DNA of 37,181 bases from the IMG/VR virus record IMGVR_UViG_3300046703_000009, positions 1-37,181 of that record. One strand, 5' to 3'. The stretch's first letter is position 1. Every line of letters begins with the position of its first letter. Shown piece by piece: positions 5,410 to 37,043 of this stretch. The stretch is from a virus. The translations under genes were made by a program, and so were the position numbers. The notes under the pieces were generated by a model. That model did no database searches, was not told where the DNA came from, and worked only from the letters and a program-made list of their open reading frames with translations.

Positions 5410-5577
5410 ATGGTACAACCCGCATTTATCGAGGATATTACCGAAACTAACTATTTAGGTTTAGCATGTAAACGTTGTTGGGGGTATCCTTCGTGTTTAG
5501 TTAAAACAAAATATAACGATTCGATATCCTGCCACTATGTTAGTAATGTAATAAATGTAAAAGGACGTAAAAAATGA
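5410..5577 (+). CDS. Cys-rich microprotein (55 aa)
   Basis: From ATG 5410 the product starts MVQPAFIEDI and carries ACKRCWGYPSC followed by ISCHYV, a four-Cys set. The frame is open upstream to 5350, but that part lies inside the preceding gene and is probably not translated. The last codons (VKGRKK) overlap the peptidase start by ATGA. Likely metal-binding; no function assigned. Confidence 0.65.
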   Translation: MVQPAFIEDITETNYLGLACKRCWGYPSCLVKTKYNDSISCHYVSNVINVKGRKK

Positions 5578-6470
5578 TAGATAAATCAAAAATAAAGTTC
5601 GGGTGGTTAAAAGATAAACCCGATAGTAGGGATTACAAATATACAGCGAAGCCGGAAGTAATAGCGGTATTGCCCGCGAGTGCAGACCTGCGTAGCTCAG
5701 ATACCCCAATACTTGACCAGGGTTCGATGGGTAGTTGCGCGGCACACGCAGCCGTTGGCGTATTCGAGTGGTTACAGAAATTTAAAACCGGTAAGTATGT
5801 CGCTGGTTCGCGTATGTTCATATATAAAGAAGCGCGGGATATAGATGGTAGCACCGGCGACGTAGGCACGTACCTTCGTAGTGTTGCGGCAGTAATGGCA
5901 AACGAGGGAGTGCCGCCCGAGTCGATATGGGGGTACTCGTCGTCGTTGTTAGATACCGAACCCACAACCGCAGTTAAGACCGAGGCTATTAAATCGCACG
6001 TCGATAGTTATTGGCGTTTAGACGGGGGCACGCAAACCGAAACTAATAACAACATAAAAGCGGCGTTAGCGACAAACGGACTACCCCCTATGTTCGGTTG
6101 TACTGTATATGATAGTATCTTTAATACCGGCAGCGATGGTATGGTCCCCAGTCCCGGCGGCAGTGTAGCAGGCGGGCACGCTATGGATATTTTGGGTTAT
6201 GACGATGCTAAACAACGGTTCCTTATAAAGAATAGTTGGGGTACATCGTGGGGGGGTAAATGCCCGACTGTTCAGTTACCGAACGGCGCACCAACTTCGG
6301 GGTATGGCTGGCTAGGTTATAACTATGATATAAGCGACGTTTGGATAGTTGCTAAAGAATCGCAAATCCAAGATACAATATTAACACCCACATACATAAA
6401 GATTGTAGCAGATAAAACAACGGCTAAGGTAAATGATAGTGTTAAGTTTACGGCAACGTTGAGTACTTAA
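5574..6470 (+). CDS. Papain-family (C1) cysteine peptidase with cut-off Ig domain
   Basis: The N-terminus GWLKDKPDSRDYKY is typical for mature-type prokaryotic C1 peptidases. The active site is complete: oxyanion Q49 in LDQGSMGSC, nucleophile C55, H202 in GGHAMDILGYD and N220 in IKNSWGTSWGG. After residue ~275 an Ig-like domain begins (IVADKTTAKVNDSVKFTA), but the protein stops after about 25 residues of it, so the domain cannot fold; compare the full one in the gene at 3-902. No signal peptide is visible. A role in degrading host envelope protein at lysis or entry is plausible, since methanogen walls and S-layers lack peptidoglycan; this is inference. Confidence 0.92.
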   Translation: MIDKSKIKFGWLKDKPDSRDYKYTAKPEVIAVLPASADLRSSDTPILDQGSMGSCAAHAAVGVFEWLQKFKTGKYVAGSRMFIYKEARDIDGSTGDVGTYLRSVAAVMANEGVPPESIWGYSSSLLDTEPTTAVKTEAIKSHVDSYWRLDGGTQTETNNNIKAALATNGLPPMFGCTVYDSIFNTGSDGMVPSPGGSVAGGHAMDILGYDDAKQRFLIKNSWGTSWGGKCPTVQLPNGAPTSGYGWLGYNYDISDVWIVAKESQIQDTILTPTYIKIVADKTTAKVNDSVKFTATLST

Positions 6471-11307: not shown

Positions 11308-13737
11308 ATGACAGTAGTTACGGTTTCACCGACGTTAGCAAACGCCGCCGCAGCTACAGTCGGTGCCCCGTCGGTATTGATGCTTGACCTTACCGACCCA
11401 GATGCTGCGGTACTTACTAATTGTCAGGTCGATTTTGTAACGTGGCCTGCCTCGGGGGTTATCAAAAATAAAGGTCAGGGGGGTAATTCCTACGATGGGA
11501 CGGCTGTTAATAACGCGCTTGTTACGTTACCGAGTAATGCGACGGCGTTTAAATTTGTCACTACCGCCACCGACACGGTAGCGATACCTGCCGGGACGGC
11601 TATTAATAATTTTAGTACCGTTACGTGGGAAATTCTATTCCGCCCCGATGCCGCGATTGGCACTGGTAACATAGCACTACTTACTACTTCAGATGGCGAA
11701 TGGTTTGTTTATGTTACTAATACAACATTACTAATAAGGCGTTTCGATACCGGCTGGTCGGCGTATCGTCAATACTTATTTAGCAATACATTTACGTCCG
11801 GCACGTGGTATTATATTCAGATAACGTGGGACTGTACCGGCTACGCCGCGACCCCGACGGTTAAGGTTAATAATAGCGCGTTAAGCGCGCCCACGAATCA
11901 ATCAAACGGGACGACGACTGCGTGGGCGAGTGATAGTAGTTATACTAAGAATATTTTTTATCCCTCTACCGCTCCCGCAATTACTATCGCACTCTATCGG
12001 TGGCATAACGTTATTCTTTCGGACGCAAATCAACAGACGAATTATAACGCGTCAATATGGCGGGCAAGTAATACGTATACCGTTTATGGCCCGAAGATAT
12101 CGGCGTTAGACTATTCAGTAGTCGGCGGCACTATAGATAATCAAGTAGGCGGAGATCCGTTAGATATAACGGGCCCGAAGATAGCGGCTATCGAGTATTC
12201 TACCGTTGGCGGCACTTCCACTATTAACCTCGGTATTATTGGGCCTAAGTTAATAGCTATTGAATACTCGGTTAAAGCCGGCACTATCCTAAACGGCGTA
12301 ACTATCGCAGGCGCTAAGGTAGTGGCCGTAGACTATTCAGTTAAAGCCGGGGTTATCAAGAATGGCGTAACGATAGCCGGACCTAAGATAACAGCGCTTG
12401 ATTATAACGTCAAAAGCGGGGCTGCGTTTGTTAGTCTTACTATCGCTGGTCCAAAACTAACAGCTATAGAATATTCTGTAACCGGCGGCACTAAAACTAT
12501 TAACTTAGGGTTATCAGGCCCCAAGATAACGGCTATCGAGTATTCAGTATTAGGCGGCACAAAGGTTGTTAATCTCGGCATCGCTGGCGCTAAGGTATCT
12601 GCATTAGACTACTCAGTATCCGGCGGCGCTATTATACTTAACCTGGGTATAGTAGGTGCTAAGGTATCCTCGATAGAATATAGCGCAGTAGGTGGCGCTT
12701 TAACTATTAACTTAGGCATCGCTGGCGCTAAGATAATAGCTATTGAATATTCAATCAAAGGCGGCGCTTTAACTATCGACTTGGGTATTACAGGGCCCAA
12801 GATACAAGCGATAGATTATTCAGTTTTAGGCGGTTCTTATATTGGCGACGTTGCAATATCTGGCGCTAAAGTAGAAGCCGTAGAATACTCTGCTATAGGT
12901 GGTGTAGTTGGGGCTGTAGTAGTAGGCCCGAAGGTAGCTGCGATAGACTATTCAGTAATCGGCGGTTCTATAACACTTAACCTGGGGATTATAGGGCCGA
13001 AAGTATCTGCGATTGATTACTCTGTGATTGGCGGCACTAGACAAACAGGGATAACAATATCAGGGCCCAAAGTAGTAGCCGCTGAGTATGACACTGTTGG
13101 CGGAACTATAACTAACGACCTACCTGGGATGCAAACCGTTTACGGGCCTAAAGTAGAGGCGTTAGACTATTCAGTATTAGGCGGCGCTAGACAAATAGGG
13201 ATAACGGTAGCGGGCCCAAAGATATTTGCATTAGACTACTCGGTTCAAAGCGGAGTTACCCAAATAGGCATTACCCGCGCGGGCCCGAAAGTAACAGCGC
13301 TAGGTTACTCAGTAGTCGGCGGCATGGGGGTTCTTAATCTCGCCATTAATGCCCCCAAGATAATCGCTATTGAGTATTCAGTTACCGGCGGCGCTATTGA
13401 GGTAGGGATAACGATAAACGGTGCTAAAGTAGCCGCCTTAGTTTATGATACAGTCGGCGGCATATTAACCGGCTCCGATGTAACTATAATAGGGGCAAAG
13501 GTAGGCGCTTTAATATATGACGTAGTTAGCGGCGCTATCGAGGTAGATATACCCGGGGCATCTGTTAACGCTGTAGAGTATTCAGTCATTGGCGGCACGC
13601 TTATACTTATTAGTGTAGTATATCGGGCCCCGCTAATAGACCATCTACAACGCAGTAATAAACGATGGGTTAAAGCGGGTAGGCCGATAGCTAATCATAC
13701 TCCCCGAACGCTAACGGGGGGCCGTCGCTATTTATAA
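11308..13737 (+). CDS. LamG-like domain plus 22-repeat adhesin-like protein
   Basis: Residues ~95-245 form a concanavalin/LamG-like sandwich (FSTVTWEILFRPDAAIGTGN, GTWYYIQITWD, ALYRWHNVILSD), a carbohydrate-binding or adhesive fold often found on phage fibres. Residues ~259-771 are 22 tandem copies of a ~23-residue unit with consensus I-x-GPKI-x-AIEYSV-x-GG-(x)5-G, which predicts a repetitive beta rod. The last ~30 residues are basic and end beside a run of six G, where the frame of the minor head gene begins. It probably projects from the virion to contact the host; which part of the particle carries it is unknown. Confidence 0.8.
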   Translation: MTVVTVSPTLANAAAATVGAPSVLMLDLTDPDAAVLTNCQVDFVTWPASGVIKNKGQGGNSYDGTAVNNALVTLPSNATAFKFVTTATDTVAIPAGTAINNFSTVTWEILFRPDAAIGTGNIALLTTSDGEWFVYVTNTTLLIRRFDTGWSAYRQYLFSNTFTSGTWYYIQITWDCTGYAATPTVKVNNSALSAPTNQSNGTTTAWASDSSYTKNIFYPSTAPAITIALYRWHNVILSDANQQTNYNASIWRASNTYTVYGPKISALDYSVVGGTIDNQVGGDPLDITGPKIAAIEYSTVGGTSTINLGIIGPKLIAIEYSVKAGTILNGVTIAGAKVVAVDYSVKAGVIKNGVTIAGPKITALDYNVKSGAAFVSLTIAGPKLTAIEYSVTGGTKTINLGLSGPKITAIEYSVLGGTKVVNLGIAGAKVSALDYSVSGGAIILNLGIVGAKVSSIEYSAVGGALTINLGIAGAKIIAIEYSIKGGALTIDLGITGPKIQAIDYSVLGGSYIGDVAISGAKVEAVEYSAIGGVVGAVVVGPKVAAIDYSVIGGSITLNLGIIGPKVSAIDYSVIGGTRQTGITISGPKVVAAEYDTVGGTITNDLPGMQTVYGPKVEALDYSVLGGARQIGITVAGPKIFALDYSVQSGVTQIGITRAGPKVTALGYSVVGGMGVLNLAINAPKIIAIEYSVTGGAIEVGITINGAKVAALVYDTVGGILTGSDVTIIGAKVGALIYDVVSGAIEVDIPGASVNAVEYSVIGGTLILISVVYRAPLIDHLQRSNKRWVKAGRPIANHTPRTLTGGRRYL
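12082..13620 (+). repeat. 22 tandem protein-level repeats (~69-base unit)
   Basis: Each unit encodes G[PA]K[IVL]-x-A-[IL]-[ED]-Y-[SD]-x-x-x-GG and a variable strand, most often 23 residues; a few units are one residue shorter or up to seven longer. Unit identity is much higher in protein than in DNA (synonymous codons vary freely), so the array is old and under selection for the protein, not a recent DNA expansion. Confidence 0.9.
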
Positions 13738-19739: not shown

Positions 19740-20936
19740 ATGGCGATAACAGTAACAGGCGGCCCCGCTTATGGACTTGCGTGGAATAAAACAACGGATG
19801 CTTACACCCGCGTCGCTTCCGCTGCCGGCTTAACGGCAGGCGCTAACTTCAATTCCCCGTCAGGCGGCGCTTGGGGATTAAGACGCTGTAACCTTTGGGA
19901 TGACGGCACCCCTACCGCTTATTATGGTGATAGGTGCTATACAGATACCGACGTAGATAATATGGGCCAAGCAATGGTTCAGATTCCTAAGTTCTATTAT
20001 TATATGGAATATGACGCCGGAACGACTACTTATTATTGGTTTGTTACAACGGTAGCGGCAACGACGATAGACGTTGGTTTAGGTGTAGGCGCGAAAACGG
20101 TTAAAATACATCCGGCGTTTACACGCGACGGGGCAACGCGAAATAATATCTATTTAGGCGCATATGAAGCGTATGGTAACCCCGTAACGACGTTAGTAGA
20201 ATCTAAGGCGGGAGTACAACCGACCGTTAGTGCCACGCTGGCAGCGTTCCGCGTTTGCGCTCGACTACGCGCGGGGGCGATAGCAAATAAATGGGAGGTA
20301 CAAGATTATCTAAGTACAACTGCCGTTGAGTTGTTATACTTGATAGAATATGGTGGTTTTAATTCCCAAGCACTCCTTAGTGCGGGGATAACAAACATGC
20401 ATGACGATGCCAACCACAACCAAGCATCGAACACGGGGCATACTACAACGTTAGGAAACGCAAGCGGGCAAGTGTTGCATACCTTCGATCATGTACCCGA
20501 TAGTGGCGACACGACTGGGTATGCGATGAGTTACCGGGGGATTGAAAACTTTTACGGTAACATATTTACGCGTATCGACGGGATAAAACTCAAACCAGAT
20601 TACAAACCGTGGGTCGCCGACCACGATTTCAACGACAGTATCACCTATGAACACCCATATATCGATACTACCTTAACACTTTCATCCACTAGTGATTATG
20701 CGGTAGATATCTCTATAAGTGCGAATCATGATTATGGCTTTTTGGCGTCAGCGGTCGGGGGGTCTTCAACAACTAAACTTTGCGATATGTATGTCAGATA
20801 TACCGGCGACAGGACGGCCCAGTTCGGGGGTGCGTGGCCGTATGGTGCCGAAGCAGGCGCGTTCTACTGGTACGTGGCTTCGGCAGCGGCAGACGGGGGG
20901 GTTATGAGTGGTGGGCGATTAATGTACATAGGTTAA
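19740..20936 (+). CDS. C-type-lectin-fold protein resembling retroelement variable proteins (head cluster)
   Basis: 398 residues. The core has AVELLYLIEYGGFNSQ and GYAMSYRGIENFYGNIFTRI, both found also in the gene at 34473. The C-terminus FGGAWPYGAEAGAFYWYVAS then GGRLMYIG follows, position by position, the pattern GG-x-W-x-x-G-x-x-AG-x-F-x-W ... G-x-R-L of C-type-lectin variable domains that are targets of diversity-generating retroelements (also related to formylglycine-generating enzyme). Tyr, Trp and Pro stand at sites that vary in such proteins. It probably binds ligands on the host surface. Unusually it is encoded among head genes. No template repeat or reverse transcriptase was found in the window. 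Confidence 0.78.
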   Translation: MAITVTGGPAYGLAWNKTTDAYTRVASAAGLTAGANFNSPSGGAWGLRRCNLWDDGTPTAYYGDRCYTDTDVDNMGQAMVQIPKFYYYMEYDAGTTTYYWFVTTVAATTIDVGLGVGAKTVKIHPAFTRDGATRNNIYLGAYEAYGNPVTTLVESKAGVQPTVSATLAAFRVCARLRAGAIANKWEVQDYLSTTAVELLYLIEYGGFNSQALLSAGITNMHDDANHNQASNTGHTTTLGNASGQVLHTFDHVPDSGDTTGYAMSYRGIENFYGNIFTRIDGIKLKPDYKPWVADHDFNDSITYEHPYIDTTLTLSSTSDYAVDISISANHDYGFLASAVGGSSTTKLCDMYVRYTGDRTAQFGGAWPYGAEAGAFYWYVASAAADGGVMSGGRLMYIG

Positions 20937-27201: not shown

Positions 27202-30200
27202 ATGGCGGATGAAATAGCCCAGTTAATGGTTAAAATCGGGGGGGATACTGGCGACCTTAAAAAGGCGCTAGACGACGCTCAAGGTAGTATCAAATCCTTC
27301 GGCAGCGGTATTACGAGCGTCGGTATGGCGCTTACCGCAGGTATAACCGTACCGCTCGTAGCCCTCGGCGCCGCGGCCCTTAAAGCCTCTGCCGATGTTA
27401 ACGGCGCGCTGCGTCAGATACAGCGCGAAACGGGGTTAACCGGCGAAGGTTTGGATAACGCGAAACAACAGTTTAAGGATCTATTTTCTACCGTACCCGC
27501 TTCCGCCGGCGAGGTAGCTACCGCGCTTAGTAGGGTAATACAACAATTAGATGTATCCTCCACCGCCGCAGAGGGTTTAGCCAAACAGTTCCTTAATTTA
27601 TCCCGTATGACGGGTACCGATTTAACTACTAATATAGATGGGGTAACACAATCGTTTAATGCCTGGTCGTTATCCGCGGCAGATATGAAAACGGACCTAG
27701 ATGCACTATATACGATATCTCAAAATACGGGGCAGGGGGTATCGGATATATCGGATATAACCGCGCGCGCCGCTGGACCAGCACAAGCGATGGGGTTATC
27801 ATATCAAGAAACGGCAATACTGGTCGCGCAGTTAGGGCAGGCAGGGGTACCCACTAAACAAATAGTATCTTCATTAAATGCGGTTATTAAAGACGCGACT
27901 AAAGATAACGTAAGCGCGGGCGTTGAGTGGCAAAATTTAATAAATAAGTTTAAAGACCCCTCATATAAGGCAACTGCCGACGATATGGCGATATTGGGTA
28001 ATAATACCACTAATTTCGCCGCAGCGGCTAGACGTGGGGATCTCGATTACGGGCCATTATTACAAAAGATAAAAGATAGCCCAAACGCCATTAATGATAT
28101 GGCGAATAAGACTACAACGCTAAGCGAGGCATTACAGTTAATGCGTAACCGTTTAGAGTTAGCGCTAACGCCGCTAGGTACCGCTATAGGCACCGCTGCG
28201 CGGGGTGCGGTCGATAGTATGGACCCCTTGATGAAAATTGTCGAGTCGTTAGGCGTTGCGTTCTCAGCGTTACCCGCACCGGTACAACAGGCTATCGTTA
28301 TATTTGGCGCTCTTGCGTCCGCCGTTGGTCCGGCGTTAATATCGTTTGGTTCCTTTGCGTCCGCTATGACGCAGATGGGTGCTATACTTCTCGGGCCTAT
28401 AATAGCGGGATTAAGCGGTGCGGCCCCTCTATTTATAGCCTTAGCGGTAGGTATCGCCGCTGTTGTAGCTATAGTCGGCCCCCTCGTCGCCGGTTTCGCT
28501 ATCGCTTATACTATGTCTAATACGCTGCGCGGGGTAATTGGTACCCTCGGGGCTGCGTTTAAGGACTTTGGCGGCCATTTACTAACCGCTGTTAACTTAA
28601 TGATAGGTGGTAAATTCCAGGAAGGATTAAAAGAAATTACAAAGGGATTTACCGATTTATTAACCGCGCTAAAAACTATTGACTGGAAGTCCGTTGGCGA
28701 TAAGATAATCACCGAGATTAAAGACCAATTTACTAATAAGAAAAGCGCGTTTAACGCCATCGCGCAGGATTTAGCTAATTGGTTTAAATCCATAAATTGG
28801 TCAGACGTTGGTAAAACTATTGGCGATTTATTAGTACAGGGGATAAAAACCTTTTTCCAGACTAATACCCTCGTAGGCGACGAGTTATTTAAATCTTCGG
28901 CAGATAATACCGGGTGGGATAACCTAAAAACCGCTGCTAAAAACGCATGGGAGGCGTTTAAAAAAGCGTTTACCGATGCACTAGGTGCTTATTATGATAG
29001 TGGGCAATTTAATACAGATTTAACTAACGCCATAAAAGCGGTAACGATACCAGTACTAGAGATAACCGCCGCCGTAATCTTAACTATTACGGACATAACC
29101 CTTAAGATGTCCCATGATGCGCTCAAGAACGCGACGGCTAATTTTACTAAAGACTTATTTGGTGGCGATTGGTTAGGCGCGGCTGGGAATTTAGTTATAA
29201 TGGTCGCTCTCCATTTATCCGGGTTAGAATACTTAGAGGGGATTAAAGAAATAATAGAAGCCGCTAAATGGATATGGGACCATCGGAATGTTAATATCGG
29301 GTTTAATATTACTATAGGGGGTATGTTTACTGAACTTATTTATACCCTAGTCCCACCGTTGCGCTGGATAGTGGAAAACTTTAGCGTTAAAGAGGTAGGC
29401 TTTAATATTACCCTGGGTGGTCTATGGGAAACCCTCGTTAATATCGTGTATCCTGCGTTACAGTGGTTTGTGCAACATCTATCTACGATCTGTACTCTTA
29501 CTATGAACGTTGTCGATAACGGTATAGCCGCGGCTAAATCGTTATGGGATTCCTTCGTAGATAAAGTGGTAACACTTACTCAAAACGTTGTGCAAACGGC
29601 GGCGTCGCAAGTAAACCCCGCTAACGCGAACCCTAACTTTAACCCTAACCCCGTTAACGCGCCTGCGGCAACACCGGGGTCTAGTAGCCCCGAAACATAT
29701 AACCCGCAGGGATTCCAACACGGCGGTATCGTTTTAGCACCAACGTTGGGGGTGGTCGCTGAGGCGGGACCTGAAGCCGTATTCCCGTTAAAAATATTAA
29801 CGGATTCGTTTGGGGATATGATTACTTGGTTAAGTAAACTTCCATCACTACTTAATGGCATTAACTCAGTTTTAGATGATGTTAAAAAATTATTAGTTAC
29901 GTCAAACATGCAACGGGTGGCGGCTAATACTTCGTTATCAAATACTGTAAATAATACATCTACCTTACCGATTACGAATACTAACACCGGAATATCGGCG
30001 GCTAATACGGGCGCCATCGCTAACTCTTCGGCGGCGGCGGCTAATTGTAGTTGTAGTGGCGGGGCAGGCAGCACCTATGGCGGCAGCGCTGGCGGTACGG
30101 GATCGTGCGCGAACGGGCAATGTGGCGGCGTGGGCAGTTCGGGCGGTGGGTATACCAGCGCGTCCGGCGGGTCATCGTGCGCGAACGGGCAATGTGGTGG

Positions 30201-32220
30201 TACTAATTATGTGGGCGCCGCGCAGGGTGCTGCATCCGCAGCATCGCCAGCTACCGTGTCGGCGGCGCCCGTTTCGACTGCTACTATTAAAGCGGGGGGT
30301 AAAGTAATTGTACACGTCGACCCGGGTATACCGGATTGCCCCCATTGTAAAGATGCCGAACAGTACTTAAGAGATAATAAGATCCCTTATGAGGTAGTAT
30401 CGGATATTCACGGCACCGGTGCCCCTGTTTTAACAGTAGTTGACGGTAGCGGTACTACTATTTATCAACAGCCAGGATTTGACCCTAACGATGTATCACA
30501 TTTAGTAAACGCGGCTAACGCTGCGGTACAAGGTAGAGCTGTTACCACGCCAGCGTCTACAACGCCAACGATAACACCCTCCGCCGCGCCATCGTTAACC
30601 GTAAGTAATATGTGCCTTCCTGGCCAGCCATGTAGCCTGGGGAGTGAGTTTAAAGGTTCCGCCTCGACATTTACACCCGCCGCCGCGTCTAAGGAAATAT
30701 TCAACGCTAATGCGGGTATTTATGACTTTATACGCAATAATAATGCTTATCAGCCCCTAAACGAGGACGCGTTAGGTACGATGCTCTATAACTTTAGGGC
30801 CGCTAATAGTGGTATGCCCGAAGAGTACATAGCTAGTGGGCAAAAGGCACTGATAGATAACTATAACCAACATATGCCCGCGGAGATAAGGGCTAAGGGG
30901 TTAACTAACCCTATGGTAATAACTGCGCTTGCACCATCATCGCCTACGATTCAGAAGGCAGTATATAACGCAAAAGTAGCGGCTATGGGTCCCGGGGCGA
31001 TGAGTTCTATAATTACGGGTATCCCTGATTCCGAAGCACCCGCCCGCGCCGTGGCGTTACAGGATCTACTTAACGCACCCCCGAGTAAAGGCTTTTCGGG
31101 CGCGCAAGACGCGGCCACGATAAAGGGATTAACTACGGCTATACAACCCGCGGTTGGGGGTATAGAGCGCTTATTTGACGTTATGCACCCCGAACTCCAA
31201 GGAATATCTAAAGACGCTGCCGGGATGTTAAAGTCGGCGGGGCAACTTAATACCACGTTTAAAGCGGATATGGTATACACTAAAGAATCCCTAGCATTTA
31301 TGGACCAGTTAGGGGTACATTGGGAAACGCTTGTACAAGATGGTAAAGCACTAAATGTCCTAATGGACGATTTCGGCAATATAATAGTACGTGCGGGCGA
31401 ATCCGTTAACGCCACTATAGTAGCGGAACGCGTGCAGTTAGCGACTGCGCAACGCAATATAGATACTATAAACGCGCAGAACGCCGCTACGGCCGCGGCA
31501 ATAGCCGCAGGAACGCCTAGCGAGTATCAAGCAACCGGTAGCGGGTCCGTCGTTCCTGGCGCCTCGCAAAGCGATTTAATGGCCGCATATGTGGCAGGCA
31601 CGCCATACGCAGCGCCTAGCGAGTATCAACAAACCGGCAGCGGGTCCGTCGTTCCTGGCGCATCGCAGAGCGATCTTATGGCGGCATATCTCGCCGGTAC
31701 TCCGTATCACCGGGGCGGCCTAGCAGGTATACAATATTTCCACGCGGGCGCAGGCGGCGCTTACGCAAACGCTGGTAACTGGTTAGGTAACGACGAGATA
31801 TTATCAGTATTACAAAAGGGCGAGCGCATATTTAGCGTAGCAGATACCAGCGCGCTAGATAATATCATTAATAGTCAATCGGCTACTATTAATCAAACCG
31901 GTGGCGGGTCGCAGCGAATAATACAGACGAGCGGTAGCGGCGGCGATAGGGACTGGGATAAATGGGCTACCGATTTTAGTAAATCACTACACGATGAATT
32001 AGACGCATTATTTAAAGACATATTTGGGGATAAACATAAGAAAACGGAGGACGAACACAGTTTAGGATGGATAACACCGCCGGATAATAAACCGATAAAC
32101 GTACCGAGCCCCACAAAGCCGCAACCGATTATTATAAACGTCGGCGATAAAACGCTAGCAAATATCATGGTTAAAACATTACGCAAGTCCGCATTTCTAG
32201 AAGGTGATTATTATTACTAA
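27202..32220 (+). CDS. Tape measure protein with embedded glutaredoxin-like domain
   Basis: 1672 residues, setting the tail length (~250 nm at 1.5 A per residue). The N-terminus (IGGDTGDLKKALDDAQGSIK, LTAGITVPLVALGAAALKAS) and GVPTKQIVSSLNAV are standard for TMPs. Residues ~365-440 are hydrophobic membrane-active segments. GGIVLAPTLGVVAEAGPEAV and GGLAGIQYFHAG near 840 and 1510 are the usual small TMP motifs. At ~965-1000 are two copies of SCANGQCGG; at 1034-1110 lies a glutaredoxin-like fold, KVIVHVDPGIPDCPHC with active site C1046-C1049 and a cis-Pro strand GAPVLTVVDG. Two 33-residue duplicate units lie at ~1439-1504. The glutaredoxin domain is not part of normal TMPs. Confidence 0.93.
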   Translation: MADEIAQLMVKIGGDTGDLKKALDDAQGSIKSFGSGITSVGMALTAGITVPLVALGAAALKASADVNGALRQIQRETGLTGEGLDNAKQQFKDLFSTVPASAGEVATALSRVIQQLDVSSTAAEGLAKQFLNLSRMTGTDLTTNIDGVTQSFNAWSLSAADMKTDLDALYTISQNTGQGVSDISDITARAAGPAQAMGLSYQETAILVAQLGQAGVPTKQIVSSLNAVIKDATKDNVSAGVEWQNLINKFKDPSYKATADDMAILGNNTTNFAAAARRGDLDYGPLLQKIKDSPNAINDMANKTTTLSEALQLMRNRLELALTPLGTAIGTAARGAVDSMDPLMKIVESLGVAFSALPAPVQQAIVIFGALASAVGPALISFGSFASAMTQMGAILLGPIIAGLSGAAPLFIALAVGIAAVVAIVGPLVAGFAIAYTMSNTLRGVIGTLGAAFKDFGGHLLTAVNLMIGGKFQEGLKEITKGFTDLLTALKTIDWKSVGDKIITEIKDQFTNKKSAFNAIAQDLANWFKSINWSDVGKTIGDLLVQGIKTFFQTNTLVGDELFKSSADNTGWDNLKTAAKNAWEAFKKAFTDALGAYYDSGQFNTDLTNAIKAVTIPVLEITAAVILTITDITLKMSHDALKNATANFTKDLFGGDWLGAAGNLVIMVALHLSGLEYLEGIKEIIEAAKWIWDHRNVNIGFNITIGGMFTELIYTLVPPLRWIVENFSVKEVGFNITLGGLWETLVNIVYPALQWFVQHLSTICTLTMNVVDNGIAAAKSLWDSFVDKVVTLTQNVVQTAASQVNPANANPNFNPNPVNAPAATPGSSSPETYNPQGFQHGGIVLAPTLGVVAEAGPEAVFPLKILTDSFGDMITWLSKLPSLLNGINSVLDDVKKLLVTSNMQRVAANTSLSNTVNNTSTLPITNTNTGISAANTGAIANSSAAAANCSCSGGAGSTYGGSAGGTGSCANGQCGGVGSSGGGYTSASGGSSCANGQCGGTNYVGAAQGAASAASPATVSAAPVSTATIKAGGKVIVHVDPGIPDCPHCKDAEQYLRDNKIPYEVVSDIHGTGAPVLTVVDGSGTTIYQQPGFDPNDVSHLVNAANAAVQGRAVTTPASTTPTITPSAAPSLTVSNMCLPGQPCSLGSEFKGSASTFTPAAASKEIFNANAGIYDFIRNNNAYQPLNEDALGTMLYNFRAANSGMPEEYIASGQKALIDNYNQHMPAEIRAKGLTNPMVITALAPSSPTIQKAVYNAKVAAMGPGAMSSIITGIPDSEAPARAVALQDLLNAPPSKGFSGAQDAATIKGLTTAIQPAVGGIERLFDVMHPELQGISKDAAGMLKSAGQLNTTFKADMVYTKESLAFMDQLGVHWETLVQDGKALNVLMDDFGNIIVRAGESVNATIVAERVQLATAQRNIDTINAQNAATAAAIAAGTPSEYQATGSGSVVPGASQSDLMAAYVAGTPYAAPSEYQQTGSGSVVPGASQSDLMAAYLAGTPYHRGGLAGIQYFHAGAGGAYANAGNWLGNDEILSVLQKGERIFSVADTSALDNIINSQSATINQTGGGSQRIIQTSGSGGDRDWDKWATDFSKSLHDELDALFKDIFGDKHKKTEDEHSLGWITPPDNKPINVPSPTKPQPIIINVGDKTLANIMVKTLRKSAFLEGDYYY
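31516..31713 (+). repeat. 99-base tandem duplication in the tape measure gene
   Basis: Two units (31516-31614 and 31615-31713) each encode PSEYQ-x-TGSGSVVPGASQ and SDLMAAY-x-AGTPY. The DNA of the copies is closely similar with mostly synonymous differences, a fairly recent in-frame duplication that adds 33 residues. Confidence 0.85.
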
Positions 32221-33052
32221 CGAGGATATTTATTGGATAGACGCGGACGGTGGCGCACTTTACCTAACTGATGGCGTTAAGTATAGTGTACTCGCGGGCG
32301 TCGACGGTCGGTGGATGCCGCCGTTTGAAATGATAACCGACGAAACATATGCAAAACCGGGCGATAGTGTACGGTTGCGTAAGACGAAGGCGCGCGATGT
32401 TACCCTGCCGTTAGCCGTGTACGGCGCGACCACATCAGACTTCCGGGCAAATATGCGTATGTTAACCGACGCGTTTGACCCATCGAAAGGCGACGGGTTC
32501 TTAAAGGTTATCACGCCGGATGATAGGACATTACTTCTGAAATGTCATTATCTGGACGGTATGACGATGCCCGAAAGTTACGACACCGGTAATTGTAAAT
32601 TCCGGATATTCGTGGCTACCTTCCAGGCACATAATCCATACTGGTTTAACGCACTCGAAAACGAGAAGATATGGACAGCCGGATATACCGCAAGTCACGC
32701 GATAACAGTCTTTAATGCCGGCGATGTCGACACGTATCCGTTATGGGTAATTACCGGCGGCTATCCGTATACTGGTTTTACGCTTGAGAACTACACGACG
32801 GGGAAAATGATTACGATGAGCGGTATTTCGTTAACCGATAACTCATATGCTATTTATATAGATACCAGGATCGGGAAGTCCTACGTATACCATAATTTCA
32901 CCACAAATTATTTTAAGTATCTCAGCGGAACATCGGAACTATTCTCGCTCGCCCCGGGGATGAATCAGATACGAGTTAATTATATCGGCGCCGCGCCGGA
33001 CCCGGATTGTTACGTTAAATGCCGGTGGGTAGACCAGTACTACGGGATATAG
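32204..33052 (+). CDS. Distal tail protein (Dit)
   Basis: ~280 residues with GGRWMPPFEMITDET-like start, RLRKTKARDVTLPLAVYGA, FRANMRMLTDAFDPSKGDG and the closing FQAHNPYWFN, typical for the siphovirus Dit family which forms the hub below the tail tube. It overlaps the tape measure by 17 bases. The only canonical start before the conserved part is GTG 32204, but GGTGA at 32203-32207 covers that codon; initiation at ATT 32213, five bases after GGTGA, is possible. Confidence 0.9.
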   Translation: MIIITNEDIYWIDADGGALYLTDGVKYSVLAGVDGRWMPPFEMITDETYAKPGDSVRLRKTKARDVTLPLAVYGATTSDFRANMRMLTDAFDPSKGDGFLKVITPDDRTLLLKCHYLDGMTMPESYDTGNCKFRIFVATFQAHNPYWFNALENEKIWTAGYTASHAITVFNAGDVDTYPLWVITGGYPYTGFTLENYTTGKMITMSGISLTDNSYAIYIDTRIGKSYVYHNFTTNYFKYLSGTSELFSLAPGMNQIRVNYIGAAPDPDCYVKCRWVDQYYGI

Positions 33053-33068
33053 AACAGCAGGTAACCAA

Positions 33069-34472
33069 ATGGCGATAGCAGATTATAAGATATGGTCGCG
33101 CGGAACAACGCCGGCGAAACTTGAGCAGGTAGACTTATGGGATAGTTTAAAGGTATGTTTATACTGGTGCGATATTGCTACATGGGAACTCGTATTACCA
33201 ACTAAAGAATACTTTGAACGCTGGGAACTAGCACCTACGGGCCTACCGGGGCTAGTTAACGGCGGCATCCGGATTTATAGAAATAATCAACTATTAATAT
33301 CTGGCCAGGTTGTTAGCGCTAACCGCGTAGCCGCGGGCGACGACGATATGATAACACTGTCCGGTATGAGCGATGCGTACTGGTTAAAGACGCGGATTAT
33401 ATGGCCGCGCGCGGATCGCCCATATAATCAACCAAATTATAATGACCCTCTTGATTACGTGCCGCGGTGGAAAGATACCGGCGGGCACTACTACGTTGCT
33501 ACCGAGGATAATATGTCGTATCCATATGCCGATAAGGCCGGAACAATAATGTGGGGGTATGCCAAAGCGGCATTAGCGGGTGTTATGGGTGGCGCGTGGA
33601 GTGGCAGGATGTATAACGTTAATTATGATTTTAACTACCCGCGCGGTTTGGCGTGGACGTATAACGATATCGCGCACGAAATTTATTTCCCGTCGCAAAC
33701 GGCATACGGGGCTGATACTATATACCAGGGACGGTTTGAAACAGTATATGACGCGTGTAAAACCCTTAGTCACGCCAACGGGGCCTCAATCGCCGAGGAG
33801 TGCCATTTTGATATTATAACCGACGAAACTAACCCGTGTCACTGGTGCGGCGACTACGAGGGGAACCTAGTATTCTATCAGTATGGGTATACAGACCATA
33901 CCGGCGAGGCATTATTCGGCGACAAACTAGGTACCATACGGTCATATGAGATTACCGAGACGCGACCGCAATATAATACATTAATGGTGGGTGGCCAAGA
34001 ATACCCGCGGGAGAGTTTCCCCGATGGACCGCAGATGCGTTTGTATCAATGCTGTCAACCGGCGATGGCTGCGGCGTCCAAAGAGACGTACGGCGTCATC
34101 GAGGGATTTATGGATTATTCTGGCACGGATACCGGAAAGACGTACCAGCAGATTGCCGCAGATATGACAAACGCGGGGGACACCGACTTGGCCGATAAGT
34201 GTTTCGATATCACGGTAAAAATAACACTCGATAGTACCGAGAACGCGGACTTTATGCCCGATTATAGTATCGGCAGCCTAGTAGACGTACAACTCGGCGA
34301 TATTATTTATACTGACCTAATACGCGAGATAGATTATACCGTTGACGCGTCCGGTGGCGAGTTGATCGAACCCACGGTATCATCGAATAAACGATGGAAA
34401 ACGCAATTACCGACGAATAAGTCATCGGCGGACGCGCGGCAGCGGGCGCTTGATTTAGCGAGGATGAAATAG
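33069..34472 (+). CDS. Gp37-like tail protein (Tal-type)
   Basis: 467 residues. KLEQVDLWDSLKVCLYWCD and ATWELVLPT, LVNGGIRIYRNNQLLISGQV, the middle FETVYDACKTLSHANG and DIITDETNP, and GTIRSYEITETRPQYNTLMV are the plan of the ReqiPepy6 Gp37-like family, a tail tip/Tal protein that follows Dit. GFMDYSGTDTGKT is typical of its inserted part. GGTAA-type site before ATG; ends one base before the next ATG. Confidence 0.88.
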   Translation: MAIADYKIWSRGTTPAKLEQVDLWDSLKVCLYWCDIATWELVLPTKEYFERWELAPTGLPGLVNGGIRIYRNNQLLISGQVVSANRVAAGDDDMITLSGMSDAYWLKTRIIWPRADRPYNQPNYNDPLDYVPRWKDTGGHYYVATEDNMSYPYADKAGTIMWGYAKAALAGVMGGAWSGRMYNVNYDFNYPRGLAWTYNDIAHEIYFPSQTAYGADTIYQGRFETVYDACKTLSHANGASIAEECHFDIITDETNPCHWCGDYEGNLVFYQYGYTDHTGEALFGDKLGTIRSYEITETRPQYNTLMVGGQEYPRESFPDGPQMRLYQCCQPAMAAASKETYGVIEGFMDYSGTDTGKTYQQIAADMTNAGDTDLADKCFDITVKITLDSTENADFMPDYSIGSLVDVQLGDIIYTDLIREIDYTVDASGGELIEPTVSSNKRWKTQLPTNKSSADARQRALDLARMK

Positions 34473-35795
34473 ATGGTAGTAGATTATATCGCCCTACGGC
34501 ATAACGACCTCGATTCTGACCGGTTGCCGTATGCGTTCGGCGTGCGGTGGGACCCTACAGATGACCCGCCGGAATGCGCGCGCCTCGGCGACGCGGAAGA
34601 TTTAACAGTGGATACTGCAACGTCTCCATATGTGTCGGACTTCGACGATTATATGCCGTGGATGGGTATCAAACGGTGCGTACTTACCGAACGCGCCGGC
34701 GATTTATTTGCCTACCCTGGCGAGACGGACGAACTCGACGTAATATCCCTCTATGATGATACGTCGGCGAAGGTAATGGTAGAGATACCGAAGTTTTGGG
34801 TTAAATTCGATAACACAAACCCCCCATATTATGATTACTGGATATCCCCGTACCCGTTGAAAGGTTATAGATTACACCCCGCATTTAACCGATATGGTAT
34901 AACCGTTGATAAAATATACGTGGGCGCGTATGAAGGATACGTAACCGGTAGTAAGCTATATTCAATAGCGAACGTAACGCCGACGGTATCAACATCGCGC
35001 ACGGCATTCCGCGCCGACGCGCAAGCGTGGAATTCTTCGACTATCGCCGGTTTCGGCTGGACGATGATAGATTACGCTGTATGGTCGGCGATTCAGTTAC
35101 TTTATTTAGTTGAATATGCCTCCTTTAACTCCCAAGTACCTAGTGGATCAACGGATATCGGTGGTCTCGGCGAGGGGATTAGTCACGCTTCTAATGTTAT
35201 AGGTACCGGGTTTACGGGTAGCGGCACCCCCGGCGGTACTGATTTAGGTAGCGCCAGCGGCCAGGTAAAAATAGATTGCACACACTGGAACCCTCTCGAC
35301 GTCAACACGGACGATTACGCGATGTCATACCGCGGGATAGAAAACTTATGGGGTAATACGTGGACGCTATTAGACGGCGTTACGGTATCAAACACCGCCG
35401 ATGGCGGCACCGTCGGGGAACCGTGCGTCGCTAATTACAGCGCGGTATTTAGCGACCACTCGTCAGGGGAGATTGATACCTACCGGTCCGGTTCCGTGAT
35501 GCCCACGGCTTCCGGACGGATAAAAAACCCCTACTTCGGTGACGCGTTTAGTGGTATATGCCAGTTCGCACCGAAAACCGTCGGTGGGTCGAGTACTACC
35601 AATATGTGCGACTATTTTTATTACACAGACTACACCGTGGCGCGTGTTTTAGGCGTCGGCGGTTGTTATACCGCCGACACGAATGCCGGGATATTCTGTT
35701 TATCCGCGCAACTGGCAGTCACCGGCACCTCTGCCACAGCGGGGTCGCGGTTACAGTACGTACCCTATGATTATATGGGGTGGACGCGGTACTAA
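34473..35795 (+). CDS. C-type-lectin-fold variable-like protein (tail tip)
   Basis: 440 residues. IQLLYLVEYASFNSQVPSG and DDYAMSYRGIENLWGNTWTL correspond to the gene at 19740. The C-terminal part VARVLGVGGCYTADTNAGIF then TSATAGSRLQYV follows the GG-x-W/Y-x5-AG-x-F ... G-x-R-L pattern of the variable C-type-lectin domains of diversity-generating retroelements; ten further residues (PYDYMGWTRY) follow. Position directly after the Gp37-like gene makes it the receptor-binding protein candidate. Several codons at predicted variable positions end in C or T (TGT, TAT, ACC, GCC, GAC), as if derived from AAY codons. Confidence 0.8.
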   Translation: MVVDYIALRHNDLDSDRLPYAFGVRWDPTDDPPECARLGDAEDLTVDTATSPYVSDFDDYMPWMGIKRCVLTERAGDLFAYPGETDELDVISLYDDTSAKVMVEIPKFWVKFDNTNPPYYDYWISPYPLKGYRLHPAFNRYGITVDKIYVGAYEGYVTGSKLYSIANVTPTVSTSRTAFRADAQAWNSSTIAGFGWTMIDYAVWSAIQLLYLVEYASFNSQVPSGSTDIGGLGEGISHASNVIGTGFTGSGTPGGTDLGSASGQVKIDCTHWNPLDVNTDDYAMSYRGIENLWGNTWTLLDGVTVSNTADGGTVGEPCVANYSAVFSDHSSGEIDTYRSGSVMPTASGRIKNPYFGDAFSGICQFAPKTVGGSSTTNMCDYFYYTDYTVARVLGVGGCYTADTNAGIFCLSAQLAVTGTSATAGSRLQYVPYDYMGWTRY

Positions 35796-35824: not shown

Positions 35825-35845
35825 TAATACATATACGTGACACGG

Positions 35846-36322
35846 ATGCAAAAAAGCTACATTGCGGTATTAATTGCGCTTGTTATTCTATTCGCGGGGT
35901 TGGGGGTCGTCGCGATGAATATGCATCCGCAACCGGCGGCATGTAAGAACTGCACGGTTAATAATACTACCGTTAAAGCGATAAGCGCACCCAAGATAAT
36001 TAACGTTACTACGTCACAAGCAACGGTTAATGCTACAGAACGCGACCGGCTTAATACTAAGATGATATATTTCTATCAGCACGACTGCCCGTATTGTACG
36101 CAAATGGAGCCAACGATGCAGCAATTAGCACGCGAGAATTATAGTATTACGTATGTTAATCTTACTTTGGACCCGAATGGTAAAGCGTTAGTAGCTCAAT
36201 ATGGGATTACGAGCACGCCGACGCTTATAATAGAAAACAGCGTAACGCATAAGAATGTTACTCTTGCCGGTGTTTATACGCACGGTATGATAGTTGAGGA
36301 TATTTTGCAGATAGGTGGATAA
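35846..36322 (+). CDS. Membrane-anchored thioredoxin-like protein (CPYC)
   Basis: I use ATG 35846 (leaderless) rather than GTG 35837. Residues ~6-26 are one membrane helix, so the rest lies outside or at the membrane. The thioredoxin fold starts at TKMIYFYQHDCPYC with C81/C84, has helix TQMEPTMQQL and cis-Pro P125 in ITSTPTLII; it ends GVYTHGMIVEDILQIGG. Cys33 and Cys36 before the fold (ACKNC) could form a second redox pair. Eight N-x-[ST] sequons (N35, N39, N40, N53, N62, N98, N105, N137) fit an archaeal surface glycoprotein. It would reduce or exchange disulphides on the outer face; the glutaredoxin domain in the tape measure may be a partner. Confidence 0.88.
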   Translation: MQKSYIAVLIALVILFAGLGVVAMNMHPQPAACKNCTVNNTTVKAISAPKIINVTTSQATVNATERDRLNTKMIYFYQHDCPYCTQMEPTMQQLARENYSITYVNLTLDPNGKALVAQYGITSTPTLIIENSVTHKNVTLAGVYTHGMIVEDILQIGG

Positions 36323-36330
36323 ATGATTAG

Positions 36331-36819
36331 ATGACGGACGAAGAGAATAATAATAATGATTTACCTAGCCACGGCGTTAAGTTAGTTAATCGAAATAACC
36401 TAAGTTATCGCGTTACTCAGCTCGAGAAATGGATGGAAAAGCACGACATGGATAACTGCCGACGGATAGAGCAGTTAGACGAGCGGGTAGATAAACAGGA
36501 TGCGCGCACTTCGCGGTACTACTCGGTTATTACCCCGGAAGAGATTAAGGATATATTAGAAGTTACGCACCGTAACGAGATAGATATTAAAGGCGTATCC
36601 GAACGATTTAACGATTTCCAACAGGATAGGCTTAAACGGTTAGAAGTAGCGAACGAAAAGATAGACACTTTAAAAGACGAGATAAGAGACGCGGAGAACC
36701 GCATTAACGCGAAGGTAGATAAAAATAAAATTAAATCACAGCAATATGTAATAGGGGTTGTAGTGGGGTTAATTGTAACGTTTATCGCTAGCGGCGTTAT
36801 TGCATTTTTGAAGTTTTAG
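36331..36819 (+). CDS. Coiled-coil protein with C-terminal membrane anchor (XhlA-like)
   Basis: 162 residues: charged helical part with heptads (VTQLEKWMEKHD; RLKRLEVANEKIDTLKDEIR) and a C-terminal helix at ~140-160 (VIGVVVGLIVTFIASGVIAF). This topology is that of haemolysin XhlA and similar phage lysis accessory proteins, which work with a holin; the next gene has the holin shape. No lytic enzyme is encoded between here and the edge, so this is inferred. Confidence 0.7.
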   Translation: MTDEENNNNDLPSHGVKLVNRNNLSYRVTQLEKWMEKHDMDNCRRIEQLDERVDKQDARTSRYYSVITPEEIKDILEVTHRNEIDIKGVSERFNDFQQDRLKRLEVANEKIDTLKDEIRDAENRINAKVDKNKIKSQQYVIGVVVGLIVTFIASGVIAFLKF

Positions 36820-36845
36820 GTTTATTATAATAGGAGGTGATATAA

Positions 36846-37043
36846 ATGGTCCTTAGATTTGACGCTAGTAGTTATATTCCTAATTCGGCGCAGTGGATTT
36901 TAATAGCCGTATTCTTCGTGGGCGCTATTGCATTAATACCGCAGTATATTACGCTTACTGAGGTACAGGTAGGATATCTTTCGCTAGCCGGTGCGCTTTT
37001 GGCACTTGCATTAAAGGTGTTTACGACCGAACCCGCAGCGTAA
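36846..37043 (+). CDS. Holin-like small membrane protein
   Basis: 65 residues with two predicted membrane helices (~17-35, SAQWILIAVFFVGAIALI; ~42-60, VGYLSLAGALLALALKVF). Strong ribosome site AGGAGGTGA at 36832-36840, five bases before ATG, so high expression is expected. Size and two-helix topology fit class II holins, but no family motif is recognised. Confidence 0.65.
   Translation: MVLRFDASSYIPNSAQWILIAVFFVGAIALIPQYITLTEVQVGYLSLAGALLALALKVFTTEPAA

Follow-up and report, generated by a model that had tools for sequence, protein, structure and literature searches.

The question raised by this locus is whether the tape measure protein of a tailed virus contains a thiol-disulphide redoxin, and what such a domain would do there. 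The window, meaning the whole analysed stretch of 37,181 nt (positions 1 to 37,181 of IMG/VR record IMGVR_UViG_3300046703_000009), probably belongs to a tailed virus of a methane-producing archaeon. Tape measure proteins (TMPs) set the length of the tail and are normally expelled on infection. The entry of archaeal tailed viruses through peptidoglycan-free protein surface layers and sheaths is poorly known.

Tape measure protein, tail genes and host

The tail genes considered here are as follows.

27202..32220, + strand: tape measure protein, 1672 aa, open reading frame uninterrupted throughout, 11 cysteines
32204..33052, + strand: distal tail protein (Dit), adjoining the TMP
33069..34472, + strand: Gp37-like tail protein (PF14594, 3.3e-21)
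34473..35795, + strand: putative tail-fibre-like protein, named by its position, upstream of a thioredoxin gene

The reading frame at 27202-32220 is a tape measure gene, as it is long, possesses an N-terminal TMP domain scoring above cut-off and is followed by the Dit gene at 32204. It matched Pfam PhageMin_Tail (3e-15, 57.1 bits against a cut-off of 33.2), NCBIfam TIGR01760 (1.4e-12, 47.4 bits against 28.8) and many tape-measure PHROGs, the best at 1.9e-52. Structure prediction of its residues 1150-1345 was too poor for use (pLDDT 47). A capsid-protein scan of IMG/VR returned 33 loci, and the nearest was G001 (IMGVR_UViG_3300047586_000013), with a 64% identical capsid. The Dit protein matched SPP1_Dit at the cut-off and is 50% identical in G001. 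The putative fibre protein gave no Pfam match, and its homologues at the same place are 42% identical in G001 and 36-38% in the loci G012 and G006/G007. It is paralogous to another fibre-like protein of the window at 19740-20936 (33% identical, E 2e-37), and G001 also has two such proteins. No reverse transcriptase was found in the window or the G001 record, so there is no sign of a diversity-generating retroelement. Elsewhere in the window, a repeat of the GPKVxAIDYSVxGG type occurs at least 14 times, often at a spacing of 23 residues, in an 809-aa protein (11308-13737). A papain-like C1 protease is encoded at 5571-6467 and also in G001, there with a DUF346 repeat; it is possibly a lytic or envelope protease which replaces a pseudomurein endopeptidase.

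The archaeal host proposed in the preliminary description gains indirect support from the large terminase subunit, which is nearest to those of psiM100/psiM2 of Methanothermobacter (46-48%; PhiF3 38%), and a methanogen-like host appears likely from this similarity. In the phage collection, the portal is nearest to Geobacillus-type phages and the capsid to bacterial phages. A capsid scan of genome contigs for the host gave one distant match only (Xenorhabdus, 27%).

A glutaredoxin-like domain in the tape measure protein

The domain and its active-site motif lie in the C-terminal part of the TMP.

30301..30540, + strand: glutaredoxin-like domain, aa 1034-1113 (about 1030-1113), beta-alpha-beta-beta-beta-alpha, helix alpha2 absent
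30337..30348, + strand: active-site motif CPHC, aa 1046-1049, matched in position by CEYC in G001

The preliminary description had read here a complete glutaredoxin/thioredoxin fold with CPHC at residues 1046-1049. The motif is at that position, and the domain is borne out by Pfam, NCBIfam and PHROG matches and by an AlphaFold2 model. When isolated, the domain matched Pfam Glutaredoxin (PF00462) at 5.5e-5 with 23.7 bits, just over the cut-off of 22.9; in the whole TMP the same profile scored 19.1 bits, under that cut-off. The match spans positions 7-29 of the 60 in the profile, which is the first half only. The NCBIfam YruB-glutaredoxin model matched at 1e-4, and PHROG_22 thioredoxin at 2.3e-4 over 64 aa with the second half included. 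Taken together, the profiles suggest a redoxin signal that is modest and above chance.

The AlphaFold2 model, built on an alignment of two sequences, is composed of a strand (11-16), a helix (24-35), three strands (40-44, 53-57 and 63-68) and a final helix (76-87), with pLDDT 77 and pTM 0.64. Nearly all of its PDB neighbours have the thioredoxin fold (Spx, Grx 2khp, NrdH 1h75, thioredoxins and CcmG). Their Z scores reach 7.3, below 8, and no Foldseek E-value was under 1e-3, so the assignment of the fold depends on the sequence profiles and the model jointly. The core of the thioredoxin-fold superfamily, strand-helix-strand followed by strand-strand-helix with the active site as expected, is present in the model, and CPHC occupies the N-terminus of helix 1, the helix being predicted from inside the motif onward. 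The full beta-alpha-beta-alpha-beta-beta-alpha pattern of glutaredoxins is not attained, as just a few residues separate strand 2 from the cis-Pro strand and leave no room for helix alpha2. Thus a thioredoxin-type fold is predicted, and the word complete was too strong. Zinc binding by CPHC alone is disfavoured, as the domain has no second pair.

G001 possesses a TMP of 1623 aa with its own redoxin in the same part of the protein, so that a CxxC accompanies the domain where the latter is retained. The G001 copy has the sequence for helix alpha2 and, when isolated, matched PF00462 more fully than the window copy (25.2 bits, profile 1-53). The N-termini of the two TMPs are 39% identical over aa 1-375. 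The two redoxins are only weakly alike (no BLAST match, local alignment z 4.4); CxxC is conserved in both, with about 25-29% identity elsewhere, and they may represent separate gains. The G001 redoxin is closer to the viral thioredoxin (E 6e-5) than to the window domain, and an origin by copying from that thioredoxin was considered. It is not claimed, since stand-alone phage redoxins score equal or higher (up to 42 bits).

A profile scan with the TMP N-terminus returned 9 loci, of which 5 were close (four at 61-64% and G001 at 39%). One of them, L055, has a complete TMP of 1173 aa with a 63% identical N-terminus; it keeps a cysteine-rich stretch and has no redoxin, hence the domain is accessory and not essential across the group. 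Single-sequence scans of viral contigs with the redoxin domain and with the whole TMP found no relative, and profile scans of viral contigs with the membrane thioredoxin, Dit and a combined redoxin pattern returned G001 alone. When the phage collection was queried with the domain, the matches listed were redoxins that either stand alone or are linked to a reductase, and no annotation among them was that of a tape measure. A limited literature search of titles and abstracts, covering few subscription journals, turned up no account of a redoxin fused into a tape measure, in agreement with the earlier remark that such an arrangement was not known as described.

Another TMP, that of G010 (L050:4015-9567, 1851 aa), was considered as a redoxin carrier and rejected, its CxxC motifs belonging to two short strand-CxWC repeats (VDLxKGxCxWCDQIGLFxG) and not to a full redoxin. 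The C-terminus of this protein shows an array of cysteines about 7 residues apart (SCAATAG...). The TMP gene at L054:4160-5391 (IMGVR_UViG_3300022818_000039) contains an internal repeat with a broken frame, probably an assembly fault.

Cysteine pairs and a membrane-anchored thioredoxin

The best functional clues are a cysteine-pair arm next to the domain and a membrane thioredoxin encoded downstream.

30046..30195, + strand: glycine-rich arm with CSC, CANGQC and CANGQC, aa 949-998, before the domain
30613..30633, + strand: cysteine pair CLPGQPC, aa 1138-1144, after the domain
35837..36322, + strand: membrane-anchored thioredoxin with CPYC, 161 aa, hydrophobic N-terminal segment by hydropathy
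36331..36819, + strand: hydrophilic protein, likely a coiled coil, with a hydrophobic segment at its C-terminus by hydropathy, adjoining the thioredoxin
36846..37043, + strand: holin-like protein (by size and topology only), 65 aa, two hydrophobic segments

The CPHC pair aside, eight of the nine cysteines of the window TMP fall inside 196 of its 1672 residues (1.5e-5 under random placement). In the G001 TMP, all six lie inside 271 of 1623 residues (6e-4 under random placement), as CGC and CSGGSC in a glycine-rich arm before the domain and CWIC after it. The arms of the two proteins have a common layout, CxC followed after 17-18 residues by CxxxxC. A CxxxxC on a flexible tail is the shuttle pair type of ribonucleotide reductase, which is reduced by redoxins; the CxxxxC of the TMP arm may be likened to it as a lead only.

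The product of 35837..36322 matched Pfam Thioredoxin_2 (1.2e-9) and Thioredoxin (7.3e-8), and a homologue is present at the same place in G001 (41% over 70 aa). In both viruses the order is putative fibre, thioredoxin, C-terminal-hydrophobic protein and two-segment holin-like protein, which places the thioredoxin two genes ahead of the holin-like gene. Proteins laid out and placed like the 36331..36819 product are found in G001, G012 and G006, and homologues of the holin-like protein are 58-61% identical in G012 and G006/G007. Over 35837-37043, the last two genes are syntenic in G001, G012 and G006/G007, and the thioredoxin is found in G001 only.

In the remaining tail modules that were read completely, those of G012 (TMP 908 aa) and G006/G007 (750 aa; both carry the same tail module), synteny is kept and neither cysteine nor redoxin occurs in the TMP, nor is there a thioredoxin. 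TMP redoxin, TMP cysteines and thioredoxin thus occur jointly in the window and G001 and are all missing from G012 and G006/G007, the sample being two virus lineages with them and two without.

Possible working of the two redoxins

What the analysis shows is a domain with a predicted fold, cysteine pairs beside it, a second redoxin, and that these features are present or absent together in the few relatives read; from this we infer catalysis by the redoxin module, its direction, its target and its time of action. Our tentatively preferred reading, which may well be right although we stop short of expecting it, is that the two redoxins form a viral thiol-disulphide module acting at the host envelope, the TMP domain during entry and the anchored thioredoxin in the late phase of infection. 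The first part would travel in the virion: the shortened glutaredoxin-like domain of the C-terminal TMP region, beside the flexible glycine-rich arm. At entry, the TMP would leave the tail and CPHC would exchange disulphides with surface-layer or sheath proteins of the host. The neighbouring cysteine pairs could store or pass on thiols (or disulphides) for a single use, proposed because no NADPH system is available outside the cell. The second part would be made in the infected cell as an N-terminally anchored thioredoxin, facing outward by the positive-inside expectation. Late in infection, it would do the matching chemistry from inside and aid assembly or release.

Action on the envelope at entry is favoured because HFTV1, an archaeal siphovirus, loses its TMP when it ejects its DNA (PMC12494034) and other TMPs carry wall-digesting domains. 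A host with a disulphide-linked envelope is an assumption of this reading. The sheath hoops of Methanospirillum are held by disulphides, and dissolving them needs DTT plus NaOH (PMC6242892); if the host had a sheath of this kind, a thiol-disulphide module would make sense. As to direction, CPHC is the motif of the oxidising DsbA and of AfTrx1 (-32 mV), and when placed into the archaeal thioredoxin AfTrx3 it gave -221 mV (PMC4395160). With such different potentials for one motif, redox direction is unreadable from sequence, and the CPHC domain may oxidise rather than reduce. The preliminary description took disulphides of the host surface layer, or of the virion itself, to be reduced during entry; both the reduction and the host-surface target are possible readings. 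The most specific version seems doubtful: a pre-charged thiol-disulphide enzyme in the TMP, with its own store of cysteine pairs, would break or rearrange the disulphide-linked surface layer of an archaeal host on the way in and, through the membrane thioredoxin, once more on the way out, by redox chemistry and not by hydrolysis.

The chief competing explanation, to which a lesser but real probability is given, is a thiol switch internal to the virion. Here the domain would form, shuffle or open disulphides among the TMP's own cysteine pairs, and between the TMP copies of the tail, locking the TMP in storage and freeing it at ejection, and the host envelope would not be the target. The crowding of nearly all TMP cysteines beside the domain in the window and G001, and the lack of any cysteine in the relatives' TMPs without redoxins, are consistent with it. 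The cysteine-rich stretch of L055, which has no domain, and the cysteine-rich repeats of G010 also hint at a structural role of the cysteines themselves. A switch alone leaves the membrane thioredoxin near the holin-like gene unexplained, unless that thioredoxin charges the virion during assembly.

An unlikely explanation is that the redoxin was captured by recombination and now acts without catalysis, as a spacer or fold at the tail tip. The loss of helix alpha2, the weak conservation of the second half, the TMP of L055 without the domain and the strong divergence of the two known copies would fit such a relic; the retention of CxxC in both copies despite this divergence, and the co-occurrence of the domain with a second viral redoxin and with cysteine pairs, argue against it. 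Injection of the domain with the TMP into the cytosol as cargo, for example for nucleotide reduction or redox defence, is very improbable. Ribonucleotide reduction is the usual role of phage redoxins that stand alone (NrdH/NrdC matches), but the few copies in a virion could hardly cover a metabolic demand, the other redoxin is anchored in the membrane, and no gene for a ribonucleotide reductase was seen in the part of the genome that was looked at.

If action at the host envelope is true, thiol-disulphide exchange joins the hydrolases known in TMPs, and the two cysteines in one protein offer a testable handle. Among known families, the domain shares with the glutaredoxin/NrdH/mycoredoxin/YruB type (PF00462, TIGR02196, TIGR02200) the CxxC at the start of helix 1, the strand-helix-strand, the position of the cis-Pro strand and the final helix, and Grx 2khp, NrdH 1h75 and Mrx1 2lqo are among its PDB neighbours. 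It differs from them in being embedded in a 1672-aa TMP, in the missing helix alpha2 and in whole-protein scores below the trusted cut-offs. CPHC is common to the domain, DsbA and AfTrx1, whereas the helical insertion of DsbA is absent from its roughly 80 aa and DsbA profiles give no match. The anchored thioredoxin resembles the TrbB/TraF envelope thioredoxins of F-type conjugation plasmids, which are likewise membrane-linked and encoded with a trans-envelope machine; it matches the TraF and TrbB profiles, the latter below the family cut-off, and differs in being viral and linked to tail and holin-like genes. The TMPs of psiM2 and psiM100 have one cysteine and no CxxC, and the 1542-aa reading frame of PhiF3 contains 5 cysteines and a single CSTC, with no redoxin recognised in it. 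A pseudomurein endoisopeptidase is encoded by psiM2/psiM100, in contrast to the papain-like protease of the window. A parallel in arrangement is offered by TMPs that likewise carry an accessory enzyme-like domain, a peptidoglycan hydrolase motif in mycobacteriophage TM4 and a muramidase in phiIPLA35 (cited in PMC12494034). Those domains attack bonds of peptidoglycan, whereas that of the window is a predicted thiol-disulphide redoxin with adjacent cysteine pairs.
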